From NCBI GenBank assembly GCA_037481875.1, contig JBBFKY010000001.1, forward strand, positions 600,510 through 664,509: a stretch of 64,000 bases of DNA. Reading direction: 5' to 3'. Under the pieces are notes generated by a model. It was not told the origin of the DNA and did not search any database. It was given only the letters and a program-made list of their open reading frames with translations. Below, piece after piece: positions 21,860 to 59,635 of the stretch (position 1 is the stretch's first letter; each line of letters opens with the position of its first letter). Source of the stretch: Desulfosoma sp. Lineage in GTDB: Bacteria; Desulfobacterota; Syntrophobacteria; Syntrophobacterales; DSM-9756. Position numbers and translations under genes: made by a program.

Positions 21860-22147
21860 GAGGAAGGCTCCTTCTTTCAGCGCGTTTTTCGGAAACCTTA
21901 GCATCCGCCTGCTACGTTGACAAGACACTCCTGACAACAGGAACTCTCAAGCGAATGGTCCGCCGTGCTGTCAGCATCTCCTGCGAAAAAGATCAATGGA
22001 CGGTCTGATTTTTTGTAAAGTCCAACCCGAATGCCGTATTGATCGTTAGAACGGGTTGGGTGGGTAGGGTTTTGAAGTTCAAGCTTCTTCCGCATAAAAG
22101 GGCGGAAGTGGAAACCAGAACAGGTGTCGGGCATTGAGGAGGCTCCA

Positions 22148-23497
22148 ATGGCGAGAGTTTTTATCAGCCCTTTGGGTACCAACAAGTATCTACCGTGTTA
22201 CTACGAAATTGACGGTCGAAGGTCGGCACGGCCGGTTAATTTTATTCAAGAAGCTCTTTTGGCCCACTGGTGTGTTTCATGGACCGCTGAGGATCGAATA
22301 CTCATCTTGTGTACAAGAGAAGCCGAGGAAAGAAATTGGCTGAATGGTGGCAACTTTGAAAAGGGTTTGCGGACGCGCATCGAAGAGCTGAATCTTCCCG
22401 CTCAACGCCAGATGCTGCCTATTCCCGACGGCAAAAACGAAACGGAAATCATGGATATTTTCATGATCCTTATGGAAGCTCTTAAGCCTCAGGACCAGGT
22501 TTACCTGGACGTCACCCATTCCTTTCGATCTCTTCCTCTACTCCAAACAGTAATCCTCAACTATGCCAAAGTGCTCAAGGACATCCGCGTGGAACGCATT
22601 GTGTACGGTGCCTTTGAAACCATGGGAACACTGAAGGAAGTCGAGCAGAGACCCGTAGAACAGCGAATCGCCCCCGTGTTTGACCTCACCCCCTACGACG
22701 CTCTCCTGGACTGGGCGAGAGCGGTTGATATTTTTCAGAAAGCCGGTCGTCCTCAGGAAATCAAGCGCCTTATAGGACGCAATCTTGGTGCTGTGTTCAA
22801 TAAGCGACAAGAGCAGGATCAAAAGAAACTGGCGTGCTCTATGTCCACCCTAGGCAATCAGCTAGAAAACCTGTGCCTTAATCTGTCCGCCGCTCGAGGT
22901 CCTCATGTGCTCAAAGCTCAATCTTTCGACGAACAACTGGACGCGGTCGAAAACCAGAGGCTGATTCCCCCGCTGACGCCCCTTTTGGAGATCCTTCGCC
23001 GCAAAGTGCAAAGATTCAAGGTTCAGAACGAAACGACCAAAGGCTTTGAAGCGGCGGCCTGGTGCTTGGAACATGAGCTGATTCCCCAGGCGTACGTTCT
23101 GCTTCGAGAAACCATTCTGAGCGCTCTTTGTCGGTGGGCAGGTCAGGACCCTATGAACGAGAAAATGCGGGAAAATTTCTGGAGCGCCCTTTTACATGTC
23201 GTGGCCACAGGCAAACCCGAAAAGGATTGGGAAGGTCTGCTTGCCCAAAAGCGGGACGAAGCCCTGCATGTTCTTAGGACTGGAGGTGAAGCGCTGAAGA
23301 CGCTTGCCAAAAAGTTTGAAGCTTTAAGGGATCGCAGAAATGATCTGATGCATGCAGGCTGGAAAACCGATGCAAAATCTGCTCCGAGCCTTCTTCAATT
23401 CCTTCAGAACGGAGGACTGGAATCCCTTCGTACCGCTTGGGAAGCCTTTGAGGCAGCGGTTCCTCCACTTTCTCGTGGTCATGGAAAAGGGCAATGA
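22148..23497 (+). CDS. csx2: Csx2/Csx1-type CARF-HEPN ribonuclease
   Basis: A 449-residue type III CRISPR accessory effector of the TM1812/Csx2 family. The CARF part (about residues 1-190) begins ARVFISPLGTNKY and holds the family signature YLDVTHSFRSLP at 119-130, which lies at the nucleotide pocket. The C-terminal HEPN part has the catalytic RxxxxH motif as RRNDLMH near residue 400. The known mechanism is activation by cyclic oligoadenylate from Cas10 and non-specific RNA cleavage. The ATG at 22148 follows GAGGAGG by six bases. The stop overlaps the next gene (ATGA). No cas gene lies between it and the left tRNA, so this pair forms its own transcript. Confidence 0.9.
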   Translation: MARVFISPLGTNKYLPCYYEIDGRRSARPVNFIQEALLAHWCVSWTAEDRILILCTREAEERNWLNGGNFEKGLRTRIEELNLPAQRQMLPIPDGKNETEIMDIFMILMEALKPQDQVYLDVTHSFRSLPLLQTVILNYAKVLKDIRVERIVYGAFETMGTLKEVEQRPVEQRIAPVFDLTPYDALLDWARAVDIFQKAGRPQEIKRLIGRNLGAVFNKRQEQDQKKLACSMSTLGNQLENLCLNLSAARGPHVLKAQSFDEQLDAVENQRLIPPLTPLLEILRRKVQRFKVQNETTKGFEAAAWCLEHELIPQAYVLLRETILSALCRWAGQDPMNEKMRENFWSALLHVVATGKPEKDWEGLLAQKRDEALHVLRTGGEALKTLAKKFEALRDRRNDLMHAGWKTDAKSAPSLLQFLQNGGLESLRTAWEAFEAAVPPLSRGHGKGQ

Positions 23498-23889
23498 TGC
23501 GACAAGCGTTTGTTCTGCTCTCACACCGGCTCACTCCAGATCAGGAAAACGACTTGACACAAACGTGGCAAGCCTCTCAGGTGCGTGTCATGCCCGAAGA
23601 ATTACAAAAGCTGTGGCAAGAAGTGCCCCCTGAAGCGGCTTCGGTTCGAGAATGGATTCAGCCTGTTTTGGAATGGTTGGCACAGGAAGCGGTTTCCGGC
23701 GATCTCGTCATCGTGCAAGGGGACTATGGAGCCACCTGTCTCACCGCATCATGGGCTTTGTCCAGAGGGCTCGTGCCGGTGTATGCCACCACAAACCGAG
23801 TCCTTGAGGAAACGATTCAACCAGACGGTAGTGTGCTTCAAAAGCGCATTTTTCGACACATTCGGTTTCGACGTTATGAGTTCGTGTAA
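23494..23889 (+). CDS. csx20: CRISPR-associated protein Csx20
   Basis: A 131-residue protein that matches the small Csx20 family: N-terminal AFVLLSHRLTPDQ, central LVIVQGDYGATCLTASWALSRGLVPVYATTNR, and C-terminal HIRFRRYEF. Csx20 is found with type III systems and has been suggested, from CARF-superfamily comparisons, to be a ring nuclease-like regulator that removes cyclic oligoadenylate. That role is inferred here. It overlaps csx2 by four bases, so effector and possible off-switch are made together. The 144 bases up to the convergent protease gene hold a weak GC-rich hairpin and no gene. Confidence 0.8.
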   Translation: MMRQAFVLLSHRLTPDQENDLTQTWQASQVRVMPEELQKLWQEVPPEAASVREWIQPVLEWLAQEAVSGDLVIVQGDYGATCLTASWALSRGLVPVYATTNRVLEETIQPDGSVLQKRIFRHIRFRRYEFV

Positions 23890-24033: not shown

Positions 24034-26166
24034 TTATCGATAGGTGAACGGAAACCATCTGGCGGGTTGATCGGCGACGGCTTCCACCACCTCCTGCCAA
24101 GAGGTTTTGGAAAGAAGCTCGGCAAAATGGGGCGTGTGAAGACGACCTTTGGCCACTTCTTCAAGGACCTTAAAAACCCCTTCCTCCAGCCACGACGTTA
24201 AAGCAAGTCCCTCTCGATACAGCCAGGCCGCGTGCAAGAGAGCCATAGGTTGTGCCGTGGAACCCAATTTTGTGCAAAATCGAAGCCCCTGTTCCCAGGC
24301 GATTTTCTTTTCTTGACGTGCATGAAGCCATCGTCCCACATTCCAAAGCCACAGTTGCCAAGGGTGTTCTGCCGGGGAACGGTAGAGCTGTTCGCGGCAC
24401 CACTTTTCGTAAACAGGCAGTCGAAAATCCGTCTCGGCGAGAAAGCGTGCCAAAGCTGCATGTTGGTAACGCTGAAGCCTTGCGGGGTTCACTTTATCGA
24501 GAGGAGATTCAATGTAGTTTTCGAGGGCCTCTTGAGCTTTGCCAACCTGATTGGCGTCTAGATAGGCATAGACGAGGTAGTGGTATTGTCGAAGACAATC
24601 CTTTTTGAATTCCTGGAGCCGCCATTCACCAAAGGCATTCCACGCCTTGGATACCGACTGAATAGAGTCCCGAAGGTAAAGGGGACCGCAAAAGCCGAAG
24701 TTTTGCGCGATGGTTCCATAAATTTTCCCCAAACTGGGCATTGCGGGTTTGAGGCCTTTGACGGCATGGCTTTCCCGAATGGATTCCAGATGGTCTTGAA
24801 TGTCCGTAAGCCATTCAGGAAGCTTCGCGTCAAAATGATAACGGCCATGGTATAAGGTAACAAAAAGCCGATTCCAAAAATCAGCCAAACGATGAATCCC
24901 TTCGAGATAAAGGGGAAGTTGTTGGGAAAAAGTGTCGCGGCAAAACTTAGCCCAACACAGCGCTTCTTCGGTATTCCCGCGTTGCCCTGCCACGGCCCAG
25001 AGAAGATGAGCCAGCCGAAAGGACGTAAGAAAGGATTGACGGGCCAGATCTTGGACGTCCTCAAAACTTATAGGATTCAGCAAAGTTTCGACCCAGCCGA
25101 GGTCTTCAGAGGCATCGGAGAAAAGCCTTTCCAGGGAATCCGTAAAACTTTCTGCATCTCGAGGGTTTTGTAAAATTTCTTTCACCGCATGAGCGTACAA
25201 TCCGGAAAAACCGCTCCACCCTCGAAGGCGCGGATCCAGGGAACGAAGTCCCAGGGCCAGCTCTTGGGGCGACCCAAGCTTTTCGAAATCTTTGGCAAAC
25301 CCTTTTCCCGTCACATCCCCTTTAAGTTCCCACAGGCATTCTGCAGCCTGGATATTCCTCACTTGCTCAACCCGCAATCCTTGTGCCGACGCCTGCGTTT
25401 CCGCCAATTCCAAAGGGCATATCAAGGTCTGAAAGCCTAAGGCCGCCAAGGCCTTCGCTTTTTCCCTGACAAAACCCACAGGGAGCACACACCCCTGTTC
25501 GTCCACATCCCCACTTGCAGCCACATGAAGGCCTCTTCGACCACCCATAGCGCCCAAGTGAGCTTCCCAGGCTCCCAGATAAGCCGGCAAAGCCCAGGAT
25601 GGTCCCTCAATGCATGGGCTCGGTTCAGACGGAGGAAGCAAAGGAATAAAAACCATGGCTTTCCCCGTTCTGTGCCTAAAGAGCTCATGAGCCCTTACCA
25701 GAGCACCTTGTGCAGCGGCATCCAGTCGGTCCATGATCCAGGAGGGGCTATGAAATTGCGTGCTAGAGGGAAGGGCTCCTAAAAGAGCCCAAAACACGTG
25801 CGCTTTCTTTCCCTGAACCGTCGGGAGAGCCACCAAAGCCCATTGAGCTTGCAGCACGTAGGCCCAGTCCAGGCAAAGGCCCACGTCATGCGGTGTCATG
25901 AGCCGCTGCAAGACCTGTAAAAAACTATGGGCTCCTTTTTCTTCTCGTCGTCCCAAGGCGGCGGCGAAAAAGGCGGTCAGAAGAAAACGAGACCAAGCTG
26001 GATCCAGACCTGTGTGCAAGATTTTTAAAATATATTCGGCTTTTTGCGGCTTTTCAGGCCAACGAAAATGCCATGGATTTGTCCACTGAAACTTTCGTTC
26101 TTCAAGGCAGCCCCATTCATGCCACACACGCATTTCTTCCAACGACCAGGAGGGAGAAACATTCAT
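24034..26166 (-). CDS. Lon-type Ser/Lys protease domain fused to helical (TPR-like) repeats
   Basis: A 710-residue protein, last of the cad1 operon. Residues about 165-285 match the Lon (S16) protease domain: GPSW with candidate nucleophile Ser190, ASGDVDEQGCVLPVGFVREKAKAL with candidate catalytic Lys236, and the following GFQTLICP strand. Ser and Lys are 46 residues apart (43 in E. coli Lon). There is no Walker A/B, so no AAA+ unfoldase. The N-terminal 140 residues are helical. The C-terminal 400 or so residues are helical, with TPR-like parts such as YLDANQVGKAQEALENYI. I see no CARF or SAVED pocket. By context it would cut the adjacent anti-sigma-like protein, as CalpL cuts CalpT; this is inference. 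The start overlaps the upstream stop (ATGA). Confidence 0.7.
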   Translation of the reverse strand: MNVSPSWSLEEMRVWHEWGCLEERKFQWTNPWHFRWPEKPQKAEYILKILHTGLDPAWSRFLLTAFFAAALGRREEKGAHSFLQVLQRLMTPHDVGLCLDWAYVLQAQWALVALPTVQGKKAHVFWALLGALPSSTQFHSPSWIMDRLDAAAQGALVRAHELFRHRTGKAMVFIPLLPPSEPSPCIEGPSWALPAYLGAWEAHLGAMGGRRGLHVAASGDVDEQGCVLPVGFVREKAKALAALGFQTLICPLELAETQASAQGLRVEQVRNIQAAECLWELKGDVTGKGFAKDFEKLGSPQELALGLRSLDPRLRGWSGFSGLYAHAVKEILQNPRDAESFTDSLERLFSDASEDLGWVETLLNPISFEDVQDLARQSFLTSFRLAHLLWAVAGQRGNTEEALCWAKFCRDTFSQQLPLYLEGIHRLADFWNRLFVTLYHGRYHFDAKLPEWLTDIQDHLESIRESHAVKGLKPAMPSLGKIYGTIAQNFGFCGPLYLRDSIQSVSKAWNAFGEWRLQEFKKDCLRQYHYLVYAYLDANQVGKAQEALENYIESPLDKVNPARLQRYQHAALARFLAETDFRLPVYEKWCREQLYRSPAEHPWQLWLWNVGRWLHARQEKKIAWEQGLRFCTKLGSTAQPMALLHAAWLYREGLALTSWLEEGVFKVLEEVAKGRLHTPHFAELLSKTSWQEVVEAVADQPARWFPFTYR

Positions 26167-27443
26167 CGGTCTACAACCAAGAGTCGAAGATCCTGAAGTA
26201 ACGGCTGATATTTTTTCGAGACAGGAAAGAGCAATCGAAAATAGCCCGTGGATCCATCCAGAGCCGATTCCAGGGGCTCGAGTTCACCATCCGAAACAAT
26301 CCATAAACCGTAGATGGAAGCTACATCTGAAAGGGGTTCAAGAATCCTTCCTCCCACGAGAACCCCTTTCGCACTGGATTGAAGGACGGTGATTTCGGCG
26401 CCCGCAGGTTTCAGAACGGGTGCAGATTCGTCACTGAGGCGAAGGAGTCTGACTGGGACGGTTTCACGGGCCGGGGCGGCCGCCAGAGGCAGGACTTCTT
26501 CGACCCACGGCGCCGTGAGCAGTGTTTTCACAGTAGGTTGGCTGTCTGGATCCAGCTGAAGCCATGGACTGAAGGTTTTTCGAAAGGTTTTCCTATCCCG
26601 AAAAAAGGAGTCCAAGGTCCAGGCCGTCGGGTTTTCTTGAAAAGCCATTAAAGTTTCCAGAGTGCGTTGAGCGAAAAAAGAAGCCACCTCTACCTCGAGA
26701 CGCTGAAACGCCGAGAGGAACGATGCGAAAGGGGATTGCGTCGAGATTTCATCGCAGAGGACAGCCTGGGATAGGTTTTGGGCTTTTTGGTGAATGACGT
26801 TCAAAAGGGCGTTGGACACCGTGAAGATGGGATCGCTCACATGCTCTTTCAAGCAGGCGAAGGTGTTCCACGGTTCGACAAAAATTCCGGGCAGAACCTC
26901 TACATCGCCGGGACCGGCGAGATCGGGAAAGTCATGGACAAGAGCGACTCGAAAAGCCGATGCCGTCTCTTCTACGGACTCGAGGACCAGCACCAAAGGA
27001 GCGTTGTAGAATCGGGATCTAGGGCCCCAGCCGGCCAAATCGGGTTGAAGGCGAACCACGTCTCCAGGCCCTGGGGATTTTGACGCGTTTACGGCGGCCG
27101 GTTTGAAGTCCTTTGTGCGATCCGGATCGAAAATGTTGAGGCAAATTCCTGAGACCCCATCGCAGCGCGGATCTTTTCCTGAGAAGGCGGGCGCTTCGCC
27201 TGCGTCCTGAGCGATCCGGTGGCTTGGAGTTCCACAGAGAGCCTTGCCTTCGCTTTTGTGTGCACGGTTTCGAAGGAGGGCATCGCGCTCTTGGTCACAC
27301 CAGGGACACGCGCTCAGGTGGCGCTGAAGAGCCTCGGGTATGGGGTCGGCAAGAAGAACGGCTTCGGGTGGACAACCCCGAGCTCTTAGGGCTTCCTCCC
27401 AAGCCAAGCGCAGAACGGCGGCACTGTGCGAGCTTTGGGGCAT
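26163..27443 (-). CDS. Anti-sigma-like protein: zinc-finger N-terminus and MazF/PemK-like region
   Basis: A 426-residue protein from the ATG at 27443 (AAAGG ten bases upstream); an ATG at 27470 overlapping the sigma gene would add nine residues. Near the N-terminus, ALQRHLSACPWCDQE has the HxxxCxxC pattern of zinc-finger anti-sigma factors. A segment about 125 residues in, GDVVRL followed by APLVLVLESV and FRVALVHDFPD, reads like the first strands of a MazF/PemK fold. The remainder is unassigned. In the type III CalpL/CalpT/CalpS system the cleaved partner is a MazF homologue that holds an ECF sigma factor, so this gene is the likely CalpT counterpart. That assignment is inferred from gene order and weak motifs. 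Confidence 0.55.
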   Translation of the reverse strand: MPQSSHSAAVLRLAWEEALRARGCPPEAVLLADPIPEALQRHLSACPWCDQERDALLRNRAHKSEGKALCGTPSHRIAQDAGEAPAFSGKDPRCDGVSGICLNIFDPDRTKDFKPAAVNASKSPGPGDVVRLQPDLAGWGPRSRFYNAPLVLVLESVEETASAFRVALVHDFPDLAGPGDVEVLPGIFVEPWNTFACLKEHVSDPIFTVSNALLNVIHQKAQNLSQAVLCDEISTQSPFASFLSAFQRLEVEVASFFAQRTLETLMAFQENPTAWTLDSFFRDRKTFRKTFSPWLQLDPDSQPTVKTLLTAPWVEEVLPLAAAPARETVPVRLLRLSDESAPVLKPAGAEITVLQSSAKGVLVGGRILEPLSDVASIYGLWIVSDGELEPLESALDGSTGYFRLLFPVSKKYQPLLQDLRLLVVDR

Positions 27444-27456
27444 AGGCACTATACCT

Positions 27457-28578
27457 TTAGAGAGATGCATCTGAATCCGTAGAACCTTTCATCCATGAAC
27501 TACGGCACTGCCAGGCCGATTTACAAGCTTTCAGGATTTCTTCGAGAAACTCCGCAGCCAGATCATGATCTTCGTCCCAGGAAGACAAACCCGACCAGAG
27601 CAGGCAAAAATCCTTGATGCGAAGAATAAGTTGCGTGAGAAGATACCTGGCGCCGGCAGCTCCTCGATAGCCTGTTTCTCGGGCGATGTCCGCTAATGTC
27701 CAGCGCATGGCGTAGTAGGCGTAGAAAACGAAGCGCTCTCGATCATCCCAGTCGGCGATCAGTTTCTGAGCGAGACGTGGCAAGTCTTGGCGCAAAAGTT
27801 CCTTTTCTTGCGACCCTTCGACGGAAACCTCAAAGTCGAGAGGAGATGAGTCATTTTCGTTTTCGGAACTCAAGTCGGAAAACAGCACTTCCCGCTCCGA
27901 CGGAGGCATGGGCAGGTGCGCCATGAGGTACCGAGTCAGTTCGCGCACGGGAACCCAACATGGTTTTCCGAGACGTCGAACGGCTTCGTGCCAAAAAGAG
28001 CAGGCTACATGAACCACCTTTTCTTTGGTCAAACCTTCGGGGTTCAAACGCAAAGAGGCTTCAGGAGGCGGCCACAGGTGATAATTTTCTGAATGCAGGA
28101 CGGCCGGATCGTCTTGCAAGGCTTCTTTCAAGGGCTCCTGAGAACACGCATAAGAGGCATGGCCGCCCTTTATGTCATATTGCACCTTGTCATGGTTATG
28201 AAGGCATTGGCGAAGTCGTCGATACAAGGCCTTGCCCGGACTTATCTGTTGGGTTCTGGAAAGGTCCAGCAAATGGCGCGTGTAACGATGCGCCACAAAA
28301 GCGGCAAGGCGATGGGCTCCTTGATCGTAAAGCGATGCGAAGGCGTATCGCTCCTCCCAGGCATCCGCTTGCTGATTGGCGTAGAGCCACAGGGTGTTCA
28401 CCATGGCCTGAATGGATGAGGTGCCTCGCTGTGGATAGTCCTGATGGGGAATGCCGTTGGAATCCGGAAGCAGACTATGCGGGATGGCTTTTCTTCTGAC
28501 CTGGTTGAGTACGATGCATGCGGCCCGTTCCAGGACGGGGTGGCATTGCGGGGATGAGAGCCAATCCTTCCAGTTCAT
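27457..28578 (-). CDS. Sigma-70-family (ECF-like) transcription factor
   Basis: A 373-residue protein. Residues about 265-325 (WDDRERFVFYAYYAMRWTLADIARETGYRGAAGARYLLTQL) have the layout of sigma region 4: an ER-V start, a TLADIA first helix and a GYRGAAGARYLL recognition helix. Residues about 75-130 (YAFASLYDQGAHRLAAFVAHRYTR) could be region 2, but this is weaker. A 100-residue linker and a charged 45-residue C-terminal tail are unusual for ECF sigma factors. The start overlaps the stop of the upstream gene by four bases (ATGA). The proposed role is transcription activation once freed from the anti-sigma-like partner. Target promoters are unknown. Confidence 0.6.
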   Translation of the reverse strand: MNWKDWLSSPQCHPVLERAACIVLNQVRRKAIPHSLLPDSNGIPHQDYPQRGTSSIQAMVNTLWLYANQQADAWEERYAFASLYDQGAHRLAAFVAHRYTRHLLDLSRTQQISPGKALYRRLRQCLHNHDKVQYDIKGGHASYACSQEPLKEALQDDPAVLHSENYHLWPPPEASLRLNPEGLTKEKVVHVACSFWHEAVRRLGKPCWVPVRELTRYLMAHLPMPPSEREVLFSDLSSENENDSSPLDFEVSVEGSQEKELLRQDLPRLAQKLIADWDDRERFVFYAYYAMRWTLADIARETGYRGAAGARYLLTQLILRIKDFCLLWSGLSSWDEDHDLAAEFLEEILKACKSAWQCRSSWMKGSTDSDASL

Positions 28579-29165
28579 GGACCTTGTACCGGCTCAAGAC
28601 ACGTTTCAGGCACTTTACCCCAAAAGCTCAGTGGTTTCCAAAAGGCGGGATCCGATGGAAGCGGAAATCGAAAAGCTTCAATGAGGTAGCTTCGGCGATC
28701 CATGACCTTGCCCGTGATTTCCAAGGTACAGCCCTGGCGGATGAAGCGAGCGGCCATTCGGCCTTTGGTGGAGCAGGGGCAGACCTCGACGGCCATGGGA
28801 TGCGTGATCCTGAGGACAAATATAGGGTGTGTGCCGAAAGGATGTCGTTGACGTTCCGGGAAAAAGAACGTCTGTTTGAGAAGTTCTCGATCGGAGGCCC
28901 CACCGAAAAGCATGCGCTCTTCCCAATACATAGGCGACAGCCGTCGTAGGGCTGCGCCCAGGACCTCCCATAGTGAGGGTGGCTTTTTCACAGGAGGGTT
29001 TTCCTGTTCGGCTTGGCGCATGTCGGAACCCACCCTAATGAAGGTACAAGCTCCTTGTCTATCCAGCCATCCTATCTCTCCACCACGATATTGGTTAGAC
29101 CATGAAAGAAGACAAATCAAGAGAGAAACCACTAGGCATGCTAGCCTGGACAGCACTTGGCACAT
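28575..29165 (-). CDS. Unknown protein of the cad1-sigma operon
   Basis: I do not recognise this protein. From the ATG at 29165 it has 196 residues, with a hydrophobic N-terminal stretch (LACLVVSLLICLLSWS) that could be a membrane anchor. From the ATG at 29021, which has AGGGTGGG upstream, it would have 148 residues and be soluble. The core block HPIFVLRITHPMAVEVCPCSTKG, followed by FIRQGCTLEITGKVMDRRSYLIEAF, alternates beta strands in a way that faintly recalls MazF/PemK toxins. It lies 35 bases after the Nudix gene and overlaps the sigma gene by four bases. It may be a toxin, a target of the protease, or an analogue of Csx31 in type III-E. Confidence 0.55.
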   Translation of the reverse strand: MCQVLSRLACLVVSLLICLLSWSNQYRGGEIGWLDRQGACTFIRVGSDMRQAEQENPPVKKPPSLWEVLGAALRRLSPMYWEERMLFGGASDRELLKQTFFFPERQRHPFGTHPIFVLRITHPMAVEVCPCSTKGRMAARFIRQGCTLEITGKVMDRRSYLIEAFRFPLPSDPAFWKPLSFWGKVPETCLEPVQGP

Positions 29166-29200: not shown

Positions 29201-29797
29201 TTAGATGAGTTGCAGTGCGAGGCGGGACCAAAGCTCCAGGGGACGGTGGTGCACCTGTCTAAGAGGGATCCATTGAAACTCGTGCAGTTCGGTACCTGGC
29301 CGAAGGGCCTTGGGCGTCAAAACCTGCATGCGAAAGACGAGTCCAAGGTGAACGAGACCCACTGAGGATTCTTCCTCATTAATGATTCCCTTAAAGGTGA
29401 GTTGGCAATGTTCGGGCAGGGTCGTAAACTCTTCGGAAAGCTCGCGGTACAGACCTCGCTCCAGTTGGGAAGCTAATTCCCCCCTTCCTGCCTCGGCATC
29501 TTCACGAATCACATGGCCTCCCAAACCCACTGAGTCCCGGCCGTGGAGCCTTTTTTCCGAGCCTTTTCGCCGGTAACAACCCACCCGGCCATGGATGTCC
29601 AACATGACCACGTAAGGGATGATCTGCTTGTACTGCTGGTCCTGTTCTACTTTCTCTCTGGGTTTGTAGCCGTAGCCTGCGGCCGCGATCACCTCAAGGC
29701 ATTGCTCATAGCGCAGAGAAAGAGCGGTTCGCCTTTGGAGCCAGGGCTTAGGAAGAGCGTGCCGGGGTACACACAAGACATGTTCTTGTAAACTCAT
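29201..29797 (-). CDS. Nudix hydrolase
   Basis: A 198-residue protein with a long-loop Nudix box: GLGGHVIRED, then ERGLYRELSEEF, giving the REUxEE metal-binding helix. Upstream, IIPYVVMLDIHGRVGCYRRKG is the usual beta-strand lead-in. Such enzymes cleave nucleoside diphosphate-X compounds. Its start overlaps the stop of cad1 (ATGA), so the two are produced together. Since Cad1 turns ATP into ITP, this enzyme may hydrolyse ITP to IMP, or degrade another product of the response; this is inferred from position only. Confidence 0.85.
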   Translation of the reverse strand: MSLQEHVLCVPRHALPKPWLQRRTALSLRYEQCLEVIAAAGYGYKPREKVEQDQQYKQIIPYVVMLDIHGRVGCYRRKGSEKRLHGRDSVGLGGHVIREDAEAGRGELASQLERGLYRELSEEFTTLPEHCQLTFKGIINEEESSVGLVHLGLVFRMQVLTPKALRPGTELHEFQWIPLRQVHHRPLELWSRLALQLI

Positions 29798-32019
29798 GGG
29801 AGCAATCCTATGTCGAGCAGCTGAAGGATCTTATTTTCAGCCTCTCGTAGAAGTTTGTGCCGCGTGGGGGCGGTGGTGAAAGCAGCTTTGAAGGCATTTC
29901 GGATGAGCAGCAGAATGTCCCAAAGGCTCAAACCGTTAGCGGTAAGCCGCCCTGCGCGGTGGTATTCGGTTGAAAAGTCGGTTCGTGAGATGCCAGGGTT
30001 GTCCGTGTTGACGGTCACCCGTAAACCCTGTTTTAGGTAGTTCAAGAGAGGGTAATGGGGGAGGGATGCCGTATTGGGCATGTGGGTGTCTCGAAAGCCT
30101 ACGATTTGGCAGTTGCTAGAGGGGCACATCTCCAGTGCGATGCGCCGATCCCGGAGGCGTTCTAGAAGGTTTGGATTCTCATGAAGAGTCAGACCGTGAC
30201 CAATGCGTTCGGCGTTGAGATGGTACACTGCCTGCCAGACACTGGAAGCGTCGGCAGTTTCGCCCGCGTGAATGGTGGCGTGCAAACACTTTTCCATGAG
30301 AGGCAAAAAAGCCTCGCGTACCTTAGCTGGTGCCAGAACTCTTTCATTTCCGGCCAAATCGAAGCCAGCCAGCATTTGGGAGAGCAGATCTTCACGCTCT
30401 AAAACTTTTTTCGCTAAAGCCACATTTTTCTGCAGAGCCGACAAATCCCGATGGCGGCTACCGATAAGAATTAGAACTGTGGATTGAGAGCCCTCTCGAG
30501 TCAGTTCTTCAGCAATGATCTGAAGCACCTGGAGGGCATTTAGTCCTCCCCGCGAGTAATTCTTCGGTGAACAGCGCACTTCCAGGTGTAGCACGTTGTG
30601 TTCTCGTGCTTTACGGCCCAAGATTCGGCACGTTGCTCTTAGGGTTTCTTCGCTCTGTAGGAGGGCGGATCCCTGAAGATCGCCTAAGGCCTCGTAAGCT
30701 TCGTAGCCTATGCCGACAAAATTTTTTTCCTCGAGGTAGGTTCCGTAAATCATTTCCTCCAGAACATGAGGGCTCGATTCAAAAAGGAGAATAAAAGCGG
30801 CTACAGGAAGCGGTTCCGGAACGCCAGGGACGGCTTGCCGTAGCGTTTTCCAGTTCAACCCTTTGCTCAGATGGATGGGATCCATCGTATTGAGACGCGA
30901 TCTCCAAGCATTAAGCCAAGGGTCCAGTTGGTGCCGGTATTTTTGGATGTTTTCCCCAACGGATGAGGCCACTTCGATCATTTCCTTGACCGTTAAAGCT
31001 CCGCCTAAATGGCAGTGCAGTTCCGCTTTGGGGAGACGGCGAAGAAGTGAAATTTCTGCTTCAACTTGGTGGGGCTCTCTATTGAGGCCGACGAGGGTCT
31101 GCTTGAGCTTCTGAATAGTTCGGGGCGGGAGGCTGTAGAGGGCGAGAAAATTGGCCGAGGTTTCTGCTTGGATGATGTGGCTGGCGTGGTTAGCCGCGAG
31201 GTTTGAGGCCGCCTGGATACGCTTTTCCAGAGCATCAAGGAGTGGGGTTTCTTTTATAGGTAAGCAGTAATCCTGCCAAAAAACAAAGGATTCCAGCGCC
31301 TTCAGCAGGTTCGTGTGGATAAAGTCTTCCAGCGGCCTTTGCCAGGTTTCCTGGTAGTCCATGAGAGGGTTAGGAGTGTGTCGGGCCACCACTACAGGTG
31401 TTACTGCATCGGCAATAGGGGCGGGAAGAGGTTTACAGAAGTCGTGGATCTGCAGTTTCTTGAAGAGAGGCAGCTTATCGTCACGGCCGACCACGTGAAC
31501 CAGGGCTCGGCACCCGAAAAAGGCGGCTGCCGTTTGCATGTCGCTGCTCATGGTCTTTCGGCCTCCCGTGAGCGACAAGAGCAGAGAACCATTGGGGCCT
31601 GCCTCCTTAGTACCACATAGGACCACCTGATGAATGGCTTCACTCATTTGACGGCATTCGGTCAAGGATGAGAGGTCCTGAAGGCCGTGAACCCTTACCA
31701 CACGGCATCGAAGCCGGTTGGATGCCGTGATGTTGAGCCAGTTTTTCAAGATGTCAAGGGCATTGATGATTTCCGGTCCATCTGTGGTGATAATCCAAAG
31801 ACTTTGGATGGGCTTAATATCGTATTGGACGCGAAGAGACTCGAGTTCCTTTCGGTTAGGGTGGTGTTTATAGAGGTCGACCAAATCGGGGTTGGTCCAT
31901 CCCAGAATTTCTGGAACAATTTCCCAGTTTTTTCCAAGTGTTGTGACGAGAACGTGGTTCATCGAAGTCATGTCACTTTTGAGGGTAGTAGTCTTGGTTA
32001 TAAACGTGAGGTTGTTCAT
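29794..32019 (-). CDS. cad1: Cad1: CARF domain fused to adenosine deaminase
   Basis: A 741-residue fusion. The CARF part (about 20-210) has HVLVTTLGKNWEIVPEILGW and the pocket loop SLTGGRKTM at 149-157. A helical linker follows. The deaminase part starts near 325 with KAELHCHLGG (zinc ligands His335 and His337) and continues with IHAGE (catalytic Glu), ERIGHG and VNTDNPG (zinc Asp), all intact. CRISPR-associated adenosine deaminases of this type bind cyclic oligoadenylate and convert ATP to ITP, stopping growth of infected cells. It opens the six-gene operon. The start at 32019 lacks a strong ribosome site; ATGs at 31971 and 31962, closer to the CARF start, are possible. Confidence 0.9.
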   Translation of the reverse strand: MNNLTFITKTTTLKSDMTSMNHVLVTTLGKNWEIVPEILGWTNPDLVDLYKHHPNRKELESLRVQYDIKPIQSLWIITTDGPEIINALDILKNWLNITASNRLRCRVVRVHGLQDLSSLTECRQMSEAIHQVVLCGTKEAGPNGSLLLSLTGGRKTMSSDMQTAAAFFGCRALVHVVGRDDKLPLFKKLQIHDFCKPLPAPIADAVTPVVVARHTPNPLMDYQETWQRPLEDFIHTNLLKALESFVFWQDYCLPIKETPLLDALEKRIQAASNLAANHASHIIQAETSANFLALYSLPPRTIQKLKQTLVGLNREPHQVEAEISLLRRLPKAELHCHLGGALTVKEMIEVASSVGENIQKYRHQLDPWLNAWRSRLNTMDPIHLSKGLNWKTLRQAVPGVPEPLPVAAFILLFESSPHVLEEMIYGTYLEEKNFVGIGYEAYEALGDLQGSALLQSEETLRATCRILGRKAREHNVLHLEVRCSPKNYSRGGLNALQVLQIIAEELTREGSQSTVLILIGSRHRDLSALQKNVALAKKVLEREDLLSQMLAGFDLAGNERVLAPAKVREAFLPLMEKCLHATIHAGETADASSVWQAVYHLNAERIGHGLTLHENPNLLERLRDRRIALEMCPSSNCQIVGFRDTHMPNTASLPHYPLLNYLKQGLRVTVNTDNPGISRTDFSTEYHRAGRLTANGLSLWDILLLIRNAFKAAFTTAPTRHKLLREAENKILQLLDIGLLP

Positions 32020-32203: not shown

Positions 32204-32239
32204 GTCTCAATCCCCTCAAATCGGGGCCTGCCTTCGGAC
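32204..32239 (-). CRISPR. Solitary CRISPR repeat left of the array
   Basis: A perfect 36-base copy of the array repeat, 582 bases away from the first repeat of the main array. It lies between the cad1 promoter region and the phage-derived block, at the old (leader-distal) end of the locus. It has the same orientation as the array. Confidence 0.95.
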
Positions 32240-32477
32240 CCTAACGGCTTGTAGTCCTCGGTGCGGGTCAGGTATTGGCCACCTCGCAACAGGTTTAGAT
32301 CGATGGCCAGGCGGTGCCTGTGCAGGCTTGGGGGTACCCATAAGGGCACCTGGGATCTCTTTAGGCGTCGCCCAGAGTGACTTCGTAGCCAAGCTCTATG
32401 GCCTTGTCAATGAGGCTGGCCACCATTCGGGCAAAGATGCTCTGATGGACTCGAAGCGAGGCACTGTTACCAGGCAT
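32240..32477 (-). pseudogene. Remnant of phage M15-type endolysin (D,D/L,D-peptidase)
   Basis: From an ATG at 32477 with AGGAGG upstream, the minus strand reads IFARMVASLIDKAIELGYEVTLGDA, then a stop at 32361-32363. In another frame it continues SLHRHRLAIDLNL and then GGQYLTRTEDYKPLG, ending exactly at the CRISPR repeat. These two blocks match phage peptidoglycan peptidases of the M15/VanY type (the GYEVTxGDA and HxxRLAIDLN motifs). The gene has an in-frame stop, a frameshift and a missing 3' end. Its start overlaps the small secreted protein gene, as in phage lysis cassettes. Confidence 0.7.
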
Positions 32478-32712
32478 TCCACTTCCTCCTGTCCTTGAGA
32501 CCTTTATTGTCGTCCTCGAAAAGAGGCATGATCACCAAGTTGTTCTTTGAGCCTCGATATCCAAAGTAGGTGTTCCCTCGCTCAAGGTCATGCATGATGA
32601 ACGGGTTCCTTTGGCCTTGGGGCACGTAGAAAAAGTGCGGGTTCCCTCGCTCGTCGAAAACAACAACGAATGAAAGCATCAGTCCGAGGATTAGGCCTGT
32701 AAAGCGCTTCAT
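32467..32712 (-). CDS. Small secreted protein, probably of phage origin
   Basis: An 81-residue protein with a clear signal peptide or anchor (MKRFTGLILGLMLSFVVVF) followed by a polar, aromatic-rich mature part (HFFYVPQGQRNPF, GNTYFGYRG). AAAGGAGG precedes the ATG by seven bases, an unusually strong ribosome site. A GGGGCCGC-loop-GCGGCCCC hairpin lies just upstream at about 32738-32758. It overlaps the endolysin remnant by 11 bases. The frame is intact. The function is unknown; a place in a phage lysis or membrane cassette is likely. Confidence 0.65.
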   Translation of the reverse strand: MKRFTGLILGLMLSFVVVFDERGNPHFFYVPQGQRNPFIMHDLERGNTYFGYRGSKNNLVIMPLFEDDNKGLKDRRKWNAW

Positions 32713-32821
32713 GGTTTCCCTCCTTTGTTCCTTTGTTGGGGCCGCACGGGGCGGCCCCGCTGTTGGGTTTATCTTAGAGCCCGAATCGAGCGGACCCGCT
32801 CCCTAGACCCGCCATCGAACG

Positions 32822-35800
32822 GTCTCAATCCCCTCAAATCGGGGCCAGCTTTCGGACGTAGCTCGGCTCTTGCGGGTCCATGTCCGAACAGTCTATGTCT
32901 TAATCCCCTCAAATCGGGGCCAGCTTTCGGACTTACCACTCGGTCCAAGCTGAGGTCAAAGACACTTGCGTCTCAATCCCCTCAAATCGGGGCCTGCCTT
33001 CGGACTAAATATGCTCAAGCCATGAAAAAAGCTGGGGTTGAGTCTCAATCCCCTCAAATCGGGGCCTGCCTTCGGACAACAGGCTCATCGTCGAGCCTGT
33101 TACAAGCTCGCAAGTCTCAATCCCCTCAAATCGGGGCCTGCCTTCGGACCAAGACTTCTAGACCATGAATTCGGCCAAGCAGCAGGTCTCAATCCCCTCA
33201 AATCGGGGCCTGCCTTCGGACTACCCACGGGGGCCTTATGCACTACCGCCGCCGCGGGTCTCAATCCCCTCAAATCGGGGCCTGCCTTCGGACACCACAA
33301 AGCCCCCGGGCAACCCCCGGGGGCTTTGGTCTCAATCCCCTCAAATCGGGGCCTGCCTTCGGACACAAACATCTCTGTAGCGTTCGGCGACAACGTCTGT
33401 CTCAATCCCCTCAAATCGGGGCCTGCCTTCGGACAGGGACATATCCGAGCAGGTCCCCCAGGGCCGATGAGTCTCAATCCCCTCAAATCGGGGCCTGCCT
33501 TCGGACGAGGGAACCCAACAGCCCGCCCGAGGCCACCACAAGTCTCAATCCCCTCAAATCGGGGCCTGCCTTCGGACCTATGAAGATCACATTCGTAAAA
33601 AGAAGGCAAGGGTGTCTCAATCCCCTCAAATCGGGGCCTGCCTTCGGACCTATCAAATGCTCGGGCTCGGGGCTTTGGCATGAAGGTCTCAATCCCCTCA
33701 AATCGGGGCCTGCCTTCGGACGTATTGAAAAAATGGGGGAGTTCCGAGCCATACCAAGTCTCAATCCCCTCAAATCGGGGCCTGCCTTCGGACCTATTGC
33801 GCCTTTGTGCGCTCGGGCTGCGTCATCTGGTCTCAATCCCCTCAAATCGGGGCCTGCCTTCGGACCTGGTTAGAGTCTTCCGCACTAACGCCGCTGGGGA
33901 AGTCTCAATCCCCTCAAATCGGGGCCTGCCTTCGGACGAGGGAACCCAACAGCCCGCCCGAGGCCACCACAAGTCTCAATCCCCTCAAATCGGGGCCTAC
34001 CTTCGGACAAGACTTGACAATGGCTTTGTCAAGTTGCCTGCAAGTCTCAATCCCCTCAAATCGGGGCCTGCCTTCGGACCTTCTAAATGCACAATGGCAC
34101 AAGCACATAGTGCTTGTCTCAATCCCCTCAAATCGGGGCCTGCCTTCGGACCAACGTTGTAAAGACCCTCCTAATCGATCTTATGAGTCTCAATCCCCTC
34201 AAATCGGGGCCTGCCTTCGGACCAAAAGACGTACCAGCTACATATGGAGACTGGTTATGGTCTCAATCCCCTCAAATCGGGGCCTGCCTTCGGACGAGAC
34301 CAAGTTTCAGAAAATACCGTGCGCGAATGGGTCTCAATCCCCTCAAATCGGGGCCTGCCTTCGGACGTCAAGTTTTGTGAAAGAGTTCTTGGGCTTTCTC
34401 AGTCTCAATCCCCTCAAATCGGGGCCTGCCTTCGGACACGAAAAGCTTGCCCGGGAGGTGCGGATTTGGTCCGGTCTCAATCCCCTCAAATCGGGGCCTG
34501 CCTTCGGACCTAATGAGTGGCCCGACGTAAAACTTACCCTCCGCGAGTCTCAATCCCCTCAAATCGGGGCCTGCCTTCGGACAAAGAAAGCAAATTACTT
34601 CAGATATGCGAAACCATGTCTCAATCCCCTCAAATCGGGGCCTGCCTTCGGACAAAGCCTGCACAAGCAGCGCTTGGCCATTGACCTGGTCTCAATCCCC
34701 TCAAATCGGGGCCTGCCTTCGGACCAAGGGAACCCAACCACAAGCCCGCCCCGAGGCCAAGTCTCAATCCCCTCAAATCGGGGCCTGCCTTCGGACGCAA
34801 AGCGGCAAATGCCCGCTTCCACGACACCTACGAGTCTCAATCCCCTCAAATCGGGGCCTGCCTTCGGACCACCTAGGCGAGGGACCCCCTCGCCTGGAGT
34901 GGAAAAGTCTCAATCCCCTCAAATCGGGGCCTGCCTTCGGACTCTTCATGCGAAAGAAACTTGAAACTCCACCTAGGCGTCTCAATCCCCTCAAATCGGG
35001 GCCTGCCTTCGGACTATGCAGAGAATAGCAAAACTCACCAAGATTAGAGGGTCTCAATCCCCTCAAATCGGGGCCTGCCTTCGGACGAAATTTCCGCTGC
35101 CGTAAAGTCAACCCCAGGCCAAGGGTCTCAATCCCCTCAAATCGGGGCCTGCCTTCGGACTCATCCTCAACACGGCGTGGTCCGGATCTTCCGGACTGTC
35201 TCAATCCCCTCAAATCGGGGCCTGCCTTCGGACCAAGAATGGAGGTTCCGACTATGCAGAGAATAGCAAGTCTCAATCCCCTCAAATCGGGGCCTGCCTT
35301 CGGACGCTACGTCTCTCCACAACAAGCAAGCCAATTAATAAGTCTCAATCCCCTCAAATCGGGGCCTGCCTTCGGACCCACCCGCGTACAGGCACAAAGC
35401 TCAGAACTTCCGGCGTCTCAATCCCCTCAAATCGGGGCCTGCCTTCGGACAACAAAGCCCGCCCGAGGCCACTCCAAGCCGCCGCCGTCTCAATCCCCTC
35501 AAATCGGGGCCTGCCTTCGGACGAAAGGAAGGCCCAAGAAACCAGGAAGGCGCTGGTGTCTCAATCCCCTCAAATCGGGGCCTGCCTTCGGACCTGATGG
35601 GATCACGGCCTTGTGGGCCACCCGCGAAGGTCTCAATCCCCTCAAATCGGGGCCTGCCTTCGGACCTGATGGGATCACGGCCTTGTGGGCCACCCGCGAA
35701 GGTCTCAATCCCCTCAAATCGGGGCCTGCCTTCGGACCCTTCCTGGCGCCCTCTGGGCGCTTTGCGACCACCGTCTCAATCCCCTCAAATCGGGGCCTGC

Positions 35801-38800
35801 CTTCGGACACAAGCCCCCGGGTAACCCCAGGGGCTTTGATCTTTGTCTCAATCCCCTCAAATCGGGGCCTGCCTTCGGACGTCGCTTTGCGACCACCTCG
35901 CCTCTAATACCCTGCGTCTCAATCCCCTCAAATCGGGGCCTGCCTTCGGACTGAAATATTAACCCTAACCCACGGCGGCGTTGCACAGTCTCAATCCCCT
36001 CAAATCGGGGCCTGCCTTCGGACCCACAAAAAGCCCAAGCAGGGAGCGGGAAACAAGTACGTCTCAATCCCCTCAAATCGGGGCCTGCCTTCGGACCAAG
36101 GACGATGCAGAAGAGGTTCTCTACTCAGCAGGGTCTCAATCCCCTCAAATCGGGGCCTGCCTTCGGACCACAACATTGGCGCCGTGGAGAGGGTTGGCGC
36201 CGCTGTCTCAATCCCCTCAAATCGGGGCCTGCCTTCGGACGCACGCCTACGTGCGCCTTGACGGAGGGGTCGGCCTGTCTCAATCCCCTCAAATCGGGGC
36301 CTGCCTTCGGACATTGCGGCGACGGGGACATGTTCCGGCCCGAGAAGTCTCAATCCCCTCAAATCGGGGCCTGCCTTCGGACACAAAGGGACCTTGGAGT
36401 ATGAAAACGGTTGCTGAAGTCTCAATCCCCTCAAATCGGGGCCTGCCTTCGGACGCAAAGCGGCAAATGCCCGCTTCCACGACACCTACGAGTCTCAATC
36501 CCCTCAAATCGGGGCCTGCCTTCGGACACACGTAATTTGGGCAATCGGCACCAAGGCAGAAAAGTCTCAATCCCCTCAAATCGGGGCCTGCCTTCGGACA
36601 AATCAGGAAAGGAGGGCACTATGCTTGACATTGGTCTCAATCCCCTCAAATCGGGGCCTGCCTTCGGACCCCTTGGGGCTTTCCTCTTTTAGTCCCTCGT
36701 AAAGGTCTCAATCCCCTCAAATCGGGGCCTGCCTTCGGACCCGAACTGACCGGCAACGTCCCTGGTACTTACCAGGGGAGTCTCAATCCCCTCAAATCGG
36801 GGCCTGCCTTCGGACCCCACGTCCAGGACCTCGGCTGGGCAAAGTTCAAGGAGTCTCAATCCCCTCAAATCGGGGCCTGCCTTCGGACATGTTATGTTCT
36901 GTCTTTCAAGAGGAATGGTGGTTGTCTCAATCCCCTCAAATCGGGGCCTGCCTTCGGACCTAATATCTCAAGGCCAAGGCCTTAGCGCCTTGGCCTTTGT
37001 CTCAATCCCCTCAAATCGGGGCCTGCCTTCGGACTTTTCGTGGGCGGACAGGAGGGATGTTTCACTGTAGTCTCAATCCCCTCAAATCGGGGCCTGCCTT
37101 CGGACTATGAAGAAAAAGACCAGCGCCAACACCGCACAGGTCTCAATCCCCTCAAATCGGGGCCTGCCTTCGGACCTAGCCACAAAGTGGCCTGAAGCCA
37201 CCTTGTGCATGTCTCAATCCCCTCAAATCGGGGCCTGCCTTCGGACCATGAAAGACGACAGACTTTTCGGTCCGTATCGGACGTCTCAATCCCCTCAAAT
37301 CGGGGCCTGCCTTCGGACGAAAATACCGTGCGCGAGTGGCTTCAAAAGCCGCTTGTCTCAATCCCCTCAAATCGGGGCCTGCCTTCGGACCCGAGGCTCC
37401 TTCCCAACCTCCCGACCTGCTCCGAGGGTCTCAATCCCCTCAAATCGGGGCCTGCCTTCGGACTAGAATATCCAAAAAAGAAGCTCATCATTCAGGGATC
37501 CGTCTCAATCCCCTCAAATCGGGGCCTGCCTTCGGACCCCTTGAGGACCCTGCGGGTCCCGCGGTGCTTGTCAGGTCTCAATCCCCTCAAATCGGGGCCT
37601 GCCTTCGGACAACGCGTACTGCACGCCAAGCAACTAACCTGCCCAAGGTCTCAATCCCCTCAAATCGGGGCCTGCCTTCGGACCCAACAAGGCGCAAGCG
37701 AAGCTTCGGATGGCCGCTCGGTCTCAATCCCCTCAAATCGGGGCCTGCCTTCGGACGACCACGTGCCGACTGAAATTCCTCCGCAGGGGATCGTCTCAAT
37801 CCCCTCAAATCGGGGCCTGCCTTCGGACATCTCGGGCCAGATCAGCTTGCCTGGCAAACTCGCGTCTCAATCCCCTCAAATCGGGGCCTGCCTTCGGACA
37901 CTCGGATCTATCAGGTAACGTAATCCTGACCAAGGTCTCAATCCCCTCAAATCGGGGCCTGCCTTCGGACTTCACCTACAAGTCTATCGAGTTCGACGAA
38001 GATTTGGTCTCAATCCCCTCAAATCGGGGCCTGCCTTCGGACAGCGGATCGTGGCCCACCTGTGCCCGAAGCTGGAGGTCTCAATCCCCTCAAATCGGGG
38101 CCTGCCTTCGGACAGGGCGACCTCGGAGCCTAAGAGAAAGAAGGAACGGTCTCAATCCCCTCAAATCGGGGCCTGCCTTCGGACGCATCTATCGTCACCA
38201 AGACCACAGGATACTCACCGTCTCAATCCCCTCAAATCGGGGCCTGCCTTCGGACACCATGAGAGGCGAAATTATCGACACGTTAGTTCTGTCTCAATCC
38301 CCTCAAATCGGGGCCTGCCTTCGGACCATGCAGCTTACGGACTCGTGCGGATAACGCGCACTGTCTCAATCCCCTCAAATCGGGGCCTGCCTTCGGACAC
38401 ACCTAACACCACATTAGAGAGGAGTTAACCATGTCTCAATCCCCTCAAATCGGGGCCTGCCTTCGGACCGACGAGCTCAGAGCTCTTGCCGACAGGCAAG
38501 AGCTCCCGATGAGTCTCAATCCCCTCAAATCGGGGCCTGCCTTCGGACTATGGCTGCCTTGCTCTATCCCGAAACCGTCGAGGAGTCTCAATCCCCTCAA
38601 ATCGGGGCCTGCCTTCGGACAGTCTATGCCAACACAATAGGGCAAGAATGCCTACGTCTCAATCCCCTCAAATCGGGGCCTGCCTTCGGACACTATGTCT
38701 CCCAGGGGCTTTTCTTTTGGTGCGCCTGTCTCAATCCCCTCAAATCGGGGCCTGCCTTCGGACTTGCAGGCCTCCCGGCCTCTATTCCGGCCTGTCGGGT

Positions 38801-41800
38801 CTCAATCCCCTCAAATCGGGGCCTGCCTTCGGACTTCCAAAGATCAGCCCTAGTGTTGGCGCAAGCCAAGTCTCAATCCCCTCAAATCGGGGCCTGCCTT
38901 CGGACGATAGAGGTGCCTGACAGGCTCAAGTGGCCTGCGGGTCTCAATCCCCTCAAATCGGGGCCTGCCTTCGGACTCAAGGCAGCCATAAGGCGCCTTG
39001 TCCATCCAATGTCTCAATCCCCTCAAATCGGGGCCTGCCTTCGGACTTGAGACATGTTTTCAGGGTGCGGGTGCTTGGGGAATTTGTCTCAATCCCCTCA
39101 AATCGGGGCCTGCCTTCGGACACCAGCTTCTCACGACTAAAGAGGCCGCCAGGTTCGTCTCAATCCCCTCAAATCGGGGCCTGCCTTCGGACCAACAAAG
39201 TAAGTTGCTAGAAGGCTGTGGTGCAACAGTCTCAATCCCCTCAAATCGGGGCCTGCCTTCGGACTTTGTTAATCACGGCGATATCGAGATCCGGCTAAGT
39301 CTCAATCCCCTCAAATCGGGGCCTGCCTTCGGACTCAACCGTTCAGCTCTGATGTTGGCTTGCGCCAACGTCTCAATCCCCTCAAATCGGGGCCTGCCTT
39401 CGGACCTATGGAAAGAAAAGAAAAAGACTGGTTCTGGATCAGTCTCAATCCCCTCAAATCGGGGCCTGCCTTCGGACACAAGCCTGTAGACTAACCGCCT
39501 TGGGGTCCCGCAGTCTCAATCCCCTCAAATCGGGGCCTGCCTTCGGACTCAACCGTTCAGCTCTGATGTTGGCTTGCGCCAACGTCTCAATCCCCTCAAA
39601 TCGGGGCCTGCCTTCGGACCTATGGAAAGAAAAGAAAAAGACTGGTTCTGGATCAGTCTCAATCCCCTCAAATCGGGGCCTGCCTTCGGACACAAGCCTG
39701 TAGACTAACCGCCTTGGGGTCCCGCAGTCTCAATCCCCTCAAATCGGGGCCTGCCTTCGGACAGATTGTGGTTCCGTGGTAAGGTTGTCTGGTTCCAGTC
39801 TCAATCCCCTCAAATCGGGGCCTGCCTTCGGACGGAAGATTTGTGAACAGTCAGGAGAAGAGTCCGCTGGTCTCAATCCCCTCAAATCGGGGCCTGCCTT
39901 CGGACTCGAGGCCGTGGACCGCTGGCTCCAATGGCGCAACAGTCTCAATCCCCTCAAATCGGGGCCTGCCTTCGGACACAATGTTCAAGCTAAGGAAATG
40001 GCACTATGAGGATGTCTCAATCCCCTCAAATCGGGGCCTGCCTTCGGACCATCCGCGGTATGGCTTGGTGCGCATCTTGCGCACGTCTCAATCCCCTCAA
40101 ATCGGGGCCTGCCTTCGGACTTCAAATAACCAGCAAAGGAATCCTGAACCACGAACGTCTCAATCCCCTCAAATCGGGGCCTGCCTTCGGACGACAACGG
40201 ACCATGTGTCGACGTAGCCAAGGCCAAGTCTCAATCCCCTCAAATCGGGGCCTGCCTTCGGACGCACTTTACCGACTGCCGCCCCGAGCTTGCTTTGAGT
40301 CTCAATCCCCTCAAATCGGGGCCTGCCTTCGGACACATGCTCGATATAGACAACTGGACACGGTCCGAATGTCTCAATCCCCTCAAATCGGGGCCTGCCT
40401 TCGGACTATGAAGCTAATGATCCAAAAATCAAGCGAAAACTGTCTCAATCCCCTCAAATCGGGGCCTGCCTTCGGACACGAACCGAGTTCGTCCCAAGCG
40501 TTCACGGGATCGTCTCAATCCCCTCAAATCGGGGCCTGCCTTCGGACCTATGCTAGCGGTAGAATTTCCAAAAAAGAAGCTCCGTCTCAATCCCCTCAAA
40601 TCGGGGCCTGCCTTCGGACGTTGACGAGACTATGCTAGCGGTAGAATTTCCAAGTCTCAATCCCCTCAAATCGGGGCCTGCCTTCGGACCCAGCACTAGG
40701 TGACAACTTTGCAAAGGAGAAGAATTATGTCTCAATCCCCTCAAATCGGGGCCTGCCTTCGGACACGGCGCTTGTGGTGCCGTCTGCAAGCTTTGCTGGG
40801 TCTCAATCCCCTCAAATCGGGGCCTGCCTTCGGACATATGCGTGCGGGAAGAAGGCCTCAGACCGGCAATATGTCTCAATCCCCTCAAATCGGGGCCTGC
40901 CTTCGGACTCATCGCGTGGTATCCAGGTGACCCTGGAACCTACCGTCTCAATCCCCTCAAATCGGGGCCTGCCTTCGGACATTGCTATGCCGTAAAGGCA
41001 TGGCGATCACGGGCGGTCTCAATCCCCTCAAATCGGGGCCTGCCTTCGGACGCACTTGTTGGGGCGTGTTGCGCAACGGGTCAAGCAGTCTCAATCCCCT
41101 CAAATCGGGGCCTGCCTTCGGACAAAGGATGGAAGACACTCCCGGCAGAGGAAGCCCGGTCTCAATCCCCTCAAATCGGGGCCTGCCTTCGGACAGGATT
41201 TGGTTTGGAATGTCTGCCTGGATCAAGCCGTCTCAATCCCCTCAAATCGGGGCCTGCCTTCGGACTATGCAAAGTCAGACTTTAACGAGGTTGCTGTTAC
41301 GTCTCAATCCCCTCAAATCGGGGCCTGCCTTCGGACAAGCGGATTCGAGCATACAATATTTCACACGGAAAGTCTCAATCCCCTCAAATCGGGGCCTGCC
41401 TTCGGACATTGAGCATCGGCGGATTGAGGCAGACGAAGCATGGTCTCAATCCCCTCAAATCGGGGCCTGCCTTCGGACCTTATTCGATGTGCGCCGATGG
41501 AAAGACGAAGAGTTTGTCTCAATCCCCTCAAATCGGGGCCTGCCTTCGGACATTCATCAAAACAAACTTCTAAGCCAAGACAAGTGTCTCAATCCCCTCA
41601 AATCGGGGCCTGCCTTCGGACATACCACCAATTCTGACGTGTCCAAACCACTCTGAGTCTCAATCCCCTCAAATCGGGGCCTGCCTTCGGACCTACTACT
41701 CGCTGGATGCCCTTCGGGCCTTTGTTCTCGTCTCAATCCCCTCAAATCGGGGCCTGCCTTCGGACTTTTGTGCGTCCTATGCGCACTTGTTGGGGCGTGT

Positions 41801-52207: not shown

Positions 52208-52289
52208 GAGGAATGTCCTCCAGTGTTCATCCGACTGTCGAGGAAAACACAACAGTCCACCCCTACAGGAACCTCTCCCCTTAGCATGG

Positions 52290-55377: not shown

Positions 55378-55616
55378 GGTTGTGACTCCCTTGGAAAAGA
55401 CGTCGAAAATTTTTTCCACAGCGTTTGCTAGTTAAGTTCCACGGCCTCAAGATCGATCTTTACAAAGGAAGCTATGGCATGAACCGCGAAAGGCTCTTGA
55501 CACATGGTCACGAAAGCGGCCGCATCAAAACCCCGGGTGTCAAAAAAAGAGACCCTCCAATTCGGTCACCCCATGAAAAAATCCCATAAAGCCAAACTTG
55601 ACATTTTTTGCGGGTT

Positions 55617-55634
55617 TGTGAGAACGTTTTCACA
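55617..55634. promoter_or_regulatory. 18-bp palindromic operator candidate in the divergent cas promoter region
   Basis: TGTGAGAAC and GTTTTCACA form an inverted repeat with a single mismatch. The site lies between the divergent TPR-CAPP-cas1-cas2 and cas6-cas10-csm runs, 61 bases before the cas6 start. A TTGACA hexamer at 55598-55603 stands 17 bases before position 55621, so the palindrome covers the expected -10 region. The arms TGTGA/TCACA resemble CRP/FNR-family sites but with an eight-base centre. Confidence 0.5.
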
Positions 55635-55694
55635 ATTCCTTTTTTGCAAAACGCTTCTCGAAGGCCGTTAGGTGGAAATGAGGGAGAAAGCACC

Positions 55695-56684: not shown

Positions 56685-56687
56685 TTC

Positions 56688-59619: not shown

Positions 59620-59635
59620 GAGGAGGGGGGTGGCT

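Follow-up and report, generated by a model that had tools for sequence, protein, structure and literature searches.

The window, the 64,000-nucleotide stretch of Desulfosoma sp. DNA analysed here, holds a type III-A CRISPR locus together with a run of minus-strand genes that encode, in this order, Cad1, a Nudix-like protein, the small protein p196, a sigma-like protein, an anti-sigma-like protein and, last, a 710-residue protein that we call Lon-TPR (Table 1). Most adjacent genes of the run overlap by 4-14 bp (4 bp for the Lon-TPR gene and the gene upstream of it), and the genes for Csx1 and Csx20 lie on the plus strand, facing the Lon-TPR operon. The Cas10 of the window retains both its HD and its GGDD motif. 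The CRISPR array is very long, with repeat 1 set off from the others by 618 bp. Beside cas1, an AEP-TOTE primase-polymerase gene (Pfam 2.7e-45) and a gene for a 480-aa TPR protein occupy positions 52290-55419, and this Cas1/primase/TPR block is found again in loci L027, L084, L086 and L089. Short tandem repeats and 211-bp tandem repeats of unassigned nature lie at 7896-8750, and an Rfam scan of the window returned tRNAs only.

Table 1. Features of the window, with coordinates on the 64,000-nucleotide stretch
Feature	Coordinates	Strand	Remarks
Csx1-type CARF-HEPN	22124..23497	plus	domain/PADLOC searches
Csx20, ring-nuclease family	23494..23889	plus	domain/PADLOC searches
Lon-TPR protease	24034..26166	minus	710 aa ORF; N-terminal helical part 1-107; Lon S16 domain 108-284 with S190/K236; TPR superhelix 290-704; conserved C-terminal FPF[ST]YR
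CalpT-like putative anti-sigma	26163..27470	minus	435 aa; likely substrate of Lon-TPR; HLSACPWC (HxxxCxxC) finger; MazF-fold ~129-238; helical middle; C-terminal beta domain
CalpS-like sigma factor	27457..28578	minus	373 aa; region 4 detected
p196	28575..29165	minus	small conserved fourth module protein; HPxFVL...CPCSSK motif
Nudix-like protein	29201..29797	minus	4 bp overlap with Cad1
Cad1 (CARF + adenosine deaminase)	29794..32019	minus	PADLOC PDLC01908, E 3.9e-205
CRISPR array	32204..50446		247 repeats
Cas1	51161..52252	minus	
cas6-cas10(csm1)-csm2-csm3-csm4-csm5	55608..63258	plus	type III-A

The earlier note had taken the 710-residue protein for a Lon-type protease with an intact Ser190/Lys236 dyad, and proposed a search against S16 peptidases and a structural comparison with CalpL. 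Searched as a single sequence, Lon-TPR gives borderline matches to Pfam Lon_C (E 0.14, below the cut-off) and to Lon in the PDB (E 0.24), whereas the profile of its family matches solved Lon domains significantly (E 3.5e-12) and CalpL over residues 183-249 (E 1.5e-4); the same profile also retrieves housekeeping Lons across the phylum, in hundreds of genomes. S190 lies within GPSW and K236 within VREK at a spacing of 46 residues, the GDVDEQGCVLPVG block is present, and both residues are invariant in 14/14 homologues of one alignment and in all 20 of a larger one that reaches down to 20% identity. In the AlphaFold2 model (pLDDT 89.7) residues 1-107 are helical, 108-284 mixed alpha/beta and 290-704 all-helical; E. 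coli Lon and CalpL rank top in a Foldseek search, and VIA-align places the model against Lon domains with Z ~19-20. With a Lon-fold domain and a Ser-Lys dyad the protein falls into peptidase family S16, and on the family profile and the predicted fold we consider it confirmed as a genuine protease of this class.

The remainder of the chain sets Lon-TPR apart from known Lon proteases. It has the catalytic fold and dyad in common with LonA/LonB and with stand-alone Lon-fold proteases, but the AAA+ unfoldase that defines LonA/LonB by its presence in the same chain was not found in Pfam/NCBIfam domain searches, the parts outside the Lon domain are modelled as helical, and the protease comes instead with a TPR half and a sigma/anti-sigma operon. 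Likewise, neither SAVED nor CARF was detected in Lon-TPR by Pfam, NCBIfam and PADLOC searches, and SAVED (PF18145) has no match anywhere in the window's own genome, which is not among the 13 SAVED-positive genomes of the 390 searched in the phylum. The C-terminal half aligns instead with TPR superhelices (APPBP2, Rap, MalT domain III and AimR; VIA-align Z 17-20), and Pfam TPR_12 matches 4 of 19 Lon-TPR homologues (best E 2.5e-7). The absence of AAA+ and SAVED and the TPR-like helical repeats described in the earlier note are thus upheld, while the all-helical model contradicts the CARF-like fold that it had thought might be hidden in this half.

Full-length relatives occur across the order with 27-55% identity, and none were found among viral contigs. 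Nineteen of the loci come from named genomes of a public collection, some of them of the same species, with Desulfacinum, Desulfosoma and Syntrophobacteraceae as the named sources. A seemingly truncated Lon-TPR of 352 aa adjoins Csx20 in locus L092 (9140-10198).

The genes preceding the protease recur with it. The order p196-sigma-antisigma-Lon is kept in many genera, with p196 often, although not always, at the front, and the anti-sigma gene holds a conserved position directly upstream of Lon. In the model of the anti-sigma-like protein (pLDDT 77), residues 129-238 adopt a MazF fold (Z 9-10), and a 23-kDa fragment of CRISPR-T (CalpT) is described as MazF-like in a review (PMC9704534). Within the anti-sigma-like family, an N-terminal HxxxCxxC motif is present in 10/13 alignment rows, the other rows being truncated or without the finger. 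In the sigma-like protein, region 4 is the sole sigma region detected (sigma70-ECF, E 0.0017), and the family profile matches region 4 of FliA with E 1.4e-5. Divergent loci carry a zf-HC2 match (8.1e-6) and a weak sigma region 4 match at the same upstream positions. Homologues of p196 are ~150 aa long, and for p196 itself the true start may lie downstream of the annotated one. None of the four proteins (Lon-TPR, anti-sigma, sigma and p196) has a significant match in PADLOC (2023) or exceeds a curated Pfam/NCBIfam cut-off. Because the sigma and anti-sigma partners, which the earlier note leaves unmentioned, stand in the same operon, the protease is Calp-like rather than a lone enzyme. Locus L031 carries an anti-sigma homologue (7935-9227) beside Csx1/Csx20 in a genome that keeps just a C-terminal remnant of Lon-TPR, and is likely a decayed module.

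CalpL, in which a protease controls the release of a sigma factor (PMC12751052), is the natural point of comparison. Three of the SAVED-positive genomes of the same phylum contain CalpL loci (L112-L114, with SAVED in L112 confirmed by NCBIfam). In each, a small gene is followed by one of sigma size, by a CalpT-like gene and by Lon-SAVED, with Cas10-csm beyond it, and the window module follows this same gene order. Common to both are the S16 Ser-Lys protease, the MazF-fold anti-sigma-like gene, the sigma gene, the small upstream gene and the placement beside type III genes. They differ in that the C-terminal half is a TPR superhelix in Lon-TPR and SAVED in CalpL, so that the window protein has the Lon domain and dyad of CalpL and lacks its C-terminal sensor, and in the extra N-terminal finger of the window anti-sigma relative to CalpT. 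Fold and order of the partner genes agree, but hhalign detects no sequence similarity between anti-sigma and CalpT, sigma and CalpS, or p196 and p150, its counterpart in the CalpL loci. The Lon domain itself aligns with that of same-phylum CalpL (hhalign E 1.2e-6), yet ComM aligns at least as well, and at the level of sequence the domain is not demonstrably nearer to CalpL than to ComM. What the window module and the Calp loci have in common is therefore an architecture, a likeness that does not by itself establish common descent of the whole set. One further candidate CalpL locus, L032 (G078), was rejected, its protein being ComM by Pfam.

The half that follows the Lon domain varies among relatives: SAVED in L112-L114, TPR in the window family and a third type in L090 and L091, whose N-terminal part and Lon domain align with Lon-TPR to about residue 450 (hhalign E ~1e-35) before the remainder diverges. 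These two loci, from two genera, retain the p196-sigma-antisigma genes, and their variant operons (L090 8464-13645; L091 ~6710-11736) adjoin the curli genes csgG, csgF and curlin; Cas10 was not found in either genome, and the third C-terminus has no significant sequence match in the PDB. Conversely, two genes inside Lon-TPR operons (L081 14211-16391 and L083 6481-8622) encode proteins in which this TPR module follows a DUF3800-like N-terminus; the DUF3800 assignment is weak, drawing on a Pfam E of 0.0066 for L083 and a short DESG motif in common. In L087, the gene that precedes Lon was likewise considered as a TPR relative but proved not to be one. Since SAVED, TPR and the third type replace one another and the TPR module recurs in fusion with a DUF3800-like domain, the C-terminal half is best described as an exchangeable input module, with the TPR half as the presumed sensor. 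If this holds generally, the Lon protease, MazF-fold anti-sigma, sigma and p196 would form a general signalling cassette of bacteria into which different sensors are plugged (SAVED for cA4, TPR for a different type III cue, and the third domain, which goes with curli genes), and the TPR module would be an undescribed receptor common to a protease and a DUF3800-like effector; we give this wider proposal somewhat less than an even chance.

Lon-TPR is associated with type III CRISPR. Cas10, called by the Csm1 profile or by Cmr2 over its cut-off, is present in 20/24 Lon-TPR genomes and in 15/54 others (Fisher p 6e-6, a guide only, as the tested genomes are phylogenetically related and the value overstates their independence); in the four Lon-TPR genomes without a Cas10 call, the assembly is fragmented and the Lon contig short. 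The association covers both III-A, as in the window, and III-B (Cas10b/Cmr1 in L082, Cmr6 in L018), and GGDD is kept in 8/8 further Cas10 proteins that are linked to Lon-TPR or CalpL and were read far enough, the window's own excluded. Csx20, a ring nuclease that degrades cA4 (PMC12409355), is present in 18 of the 20 Cas10-positive Lon-TPR genomes, often within 5 kb, against 9/15 Cas10-positive controls, a marginal difference (p 0.05). Because Csx20 degrades cA4, cA4 signalling probably runs in the Lon-TPR cells that bear it, which is not to say that Lon-TPR reads cA4.

We propose to read the window locus as a signalling module of the Calp type whose input half is new, TPR having taken the place of SAVED, and put the probability of this reading at roughly 60%. 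In resting cells, Lon-TPR would be kept inactive and the sigma factor would be bound by the CalpT-like protein. Upon infection the TPR superhelix would meet its trigger and the Lon domain would become active through Ser190 and Lys236, cutting the CalpT-like anti-sigma; the freed sigma factor would then drive transcription in response, in parallel with the arms formed by Csx1 and Cad1. Protease-controlled sigma release is, in our analysis, the best-supported account of the module, with the anti-sigma as the presumed substrate and type III activation presumably upstream of Lon-TPR. For the trigger, three candidates are about equally likely, each of them individually rather unlikely: a nucleotide, direct contact with the complex that contains Cas10, and infection sensed independently.

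If the trigger is direct contact, the TPR half would dock on Csm or Cmr and binding of target RNA would open the protease with no second messenger. The TPR superhelix would suit such a role, and Craspase provides the precedent of a TPR protease that cleaves an anti-sigma (PMC10028731). Craspase or CASP systems (Cas7-11, TPR-CHAT Csx29, Csx30, Csx31 and CASP-sigma) likewise combine a TPR-bearing CRISPR protease with an anti-sigma, a sigma factor and a small fourth gene, but theirs is a CHAT cysteine protease working with Cas7-11 (gRAMP), whereas here we find a Lon serine-lysine protease with no CHAT Cys-His domain, beside a multi-subunit Csm or Cmr with an active-looking Cas10 (in the window, separate Cas10 and Csm2-5). 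Lon-TPR occurs with both III-A and III-B, so the contact site would need to be common to both; Csx29 is not among the matches listed in fold and sequence comparisons of the TPR half, which proves nothing on relatedness and carries no verdict on this model.

A nucleotide trigger would work across III-A and III-B, with the TPR half or a partner binding cA4 or another Cas10 product as a functional substitute for SAVED. The intact HD and GGDD of Cas10 and the frequency of Csx20 are consistent with it; against it, Lon-TPR has no known cOA-binding fold, and the marginal enrichment of Csx20 could be accounted for by Csx1 alone. The order of events may also be the reverse: the module would sense infection or stress with no need for Cas10, and the module's sigma factor would turn on the CRISPR locus. 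The Cas10 association leaves the direction open and would also fit a module that acts ahead of CRISPR expression. Its curli-linked relative indicates that such modules work away from CRISPR too, and the structural neighbours of the TPR half include peptide- or sugar-binding TPR domains, those of Rap, AimR and MalT. However, CalpL, which comes closest among characterised systems, works downstream of Cas10, and a promoter motif shared by the module and the cas genes was found no more often than in shuffled sequences.

That Cad1 or the product of the Nudix protein controls Lon-TPR, as raised in the earlier note and suggested by the single run of Cad1-Nudix-p196-sigma-antisigma-Lon genes in the window, is very improbable as a general rule: Cad1 was found in 11 of 26 genomes with a Lon-type gene (a count that takes in two with the curli-linked variant), which makes an obligate Cad1/Nudix role unlikely, and gene order relative to Lon differs among loci. 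The Nudix-like protein appears dispensable for Lon-TPR and is a probable partner of Cad1. The Nudix-like gene follows Cad1 in the window (29201-32019) and also in L050, L089 and L094; Cad1 reportedly makes ITP, which the Nudix-like protein may process. Equally improbable is a Lon domain that is a non-catalytic scaffold, as the sub-threshold Lon_C match of the single sequence might suggest, given that the serine and lysine are invariant despite divergence of most other residues.

In the open-access papers searched, Lon-SAVED, CARF-Lon and TPR-CHAT are described and Lon-TPR is not; an earlier mention in subscription papers is possible. If the Calp-type reading with a TPR input is correct, CRISPR-controlled proteolytic sigma release would need neither SAVED nor cA4, and type III systems would have one more protease pathway as well as a new TPR receptor common to two effector types. 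Calp modules might then be part of a wider signalling cassette that extends beyond immunity, and the Lon-TPR module offers a defined candidate substrate and catalytic residues for direct tests.
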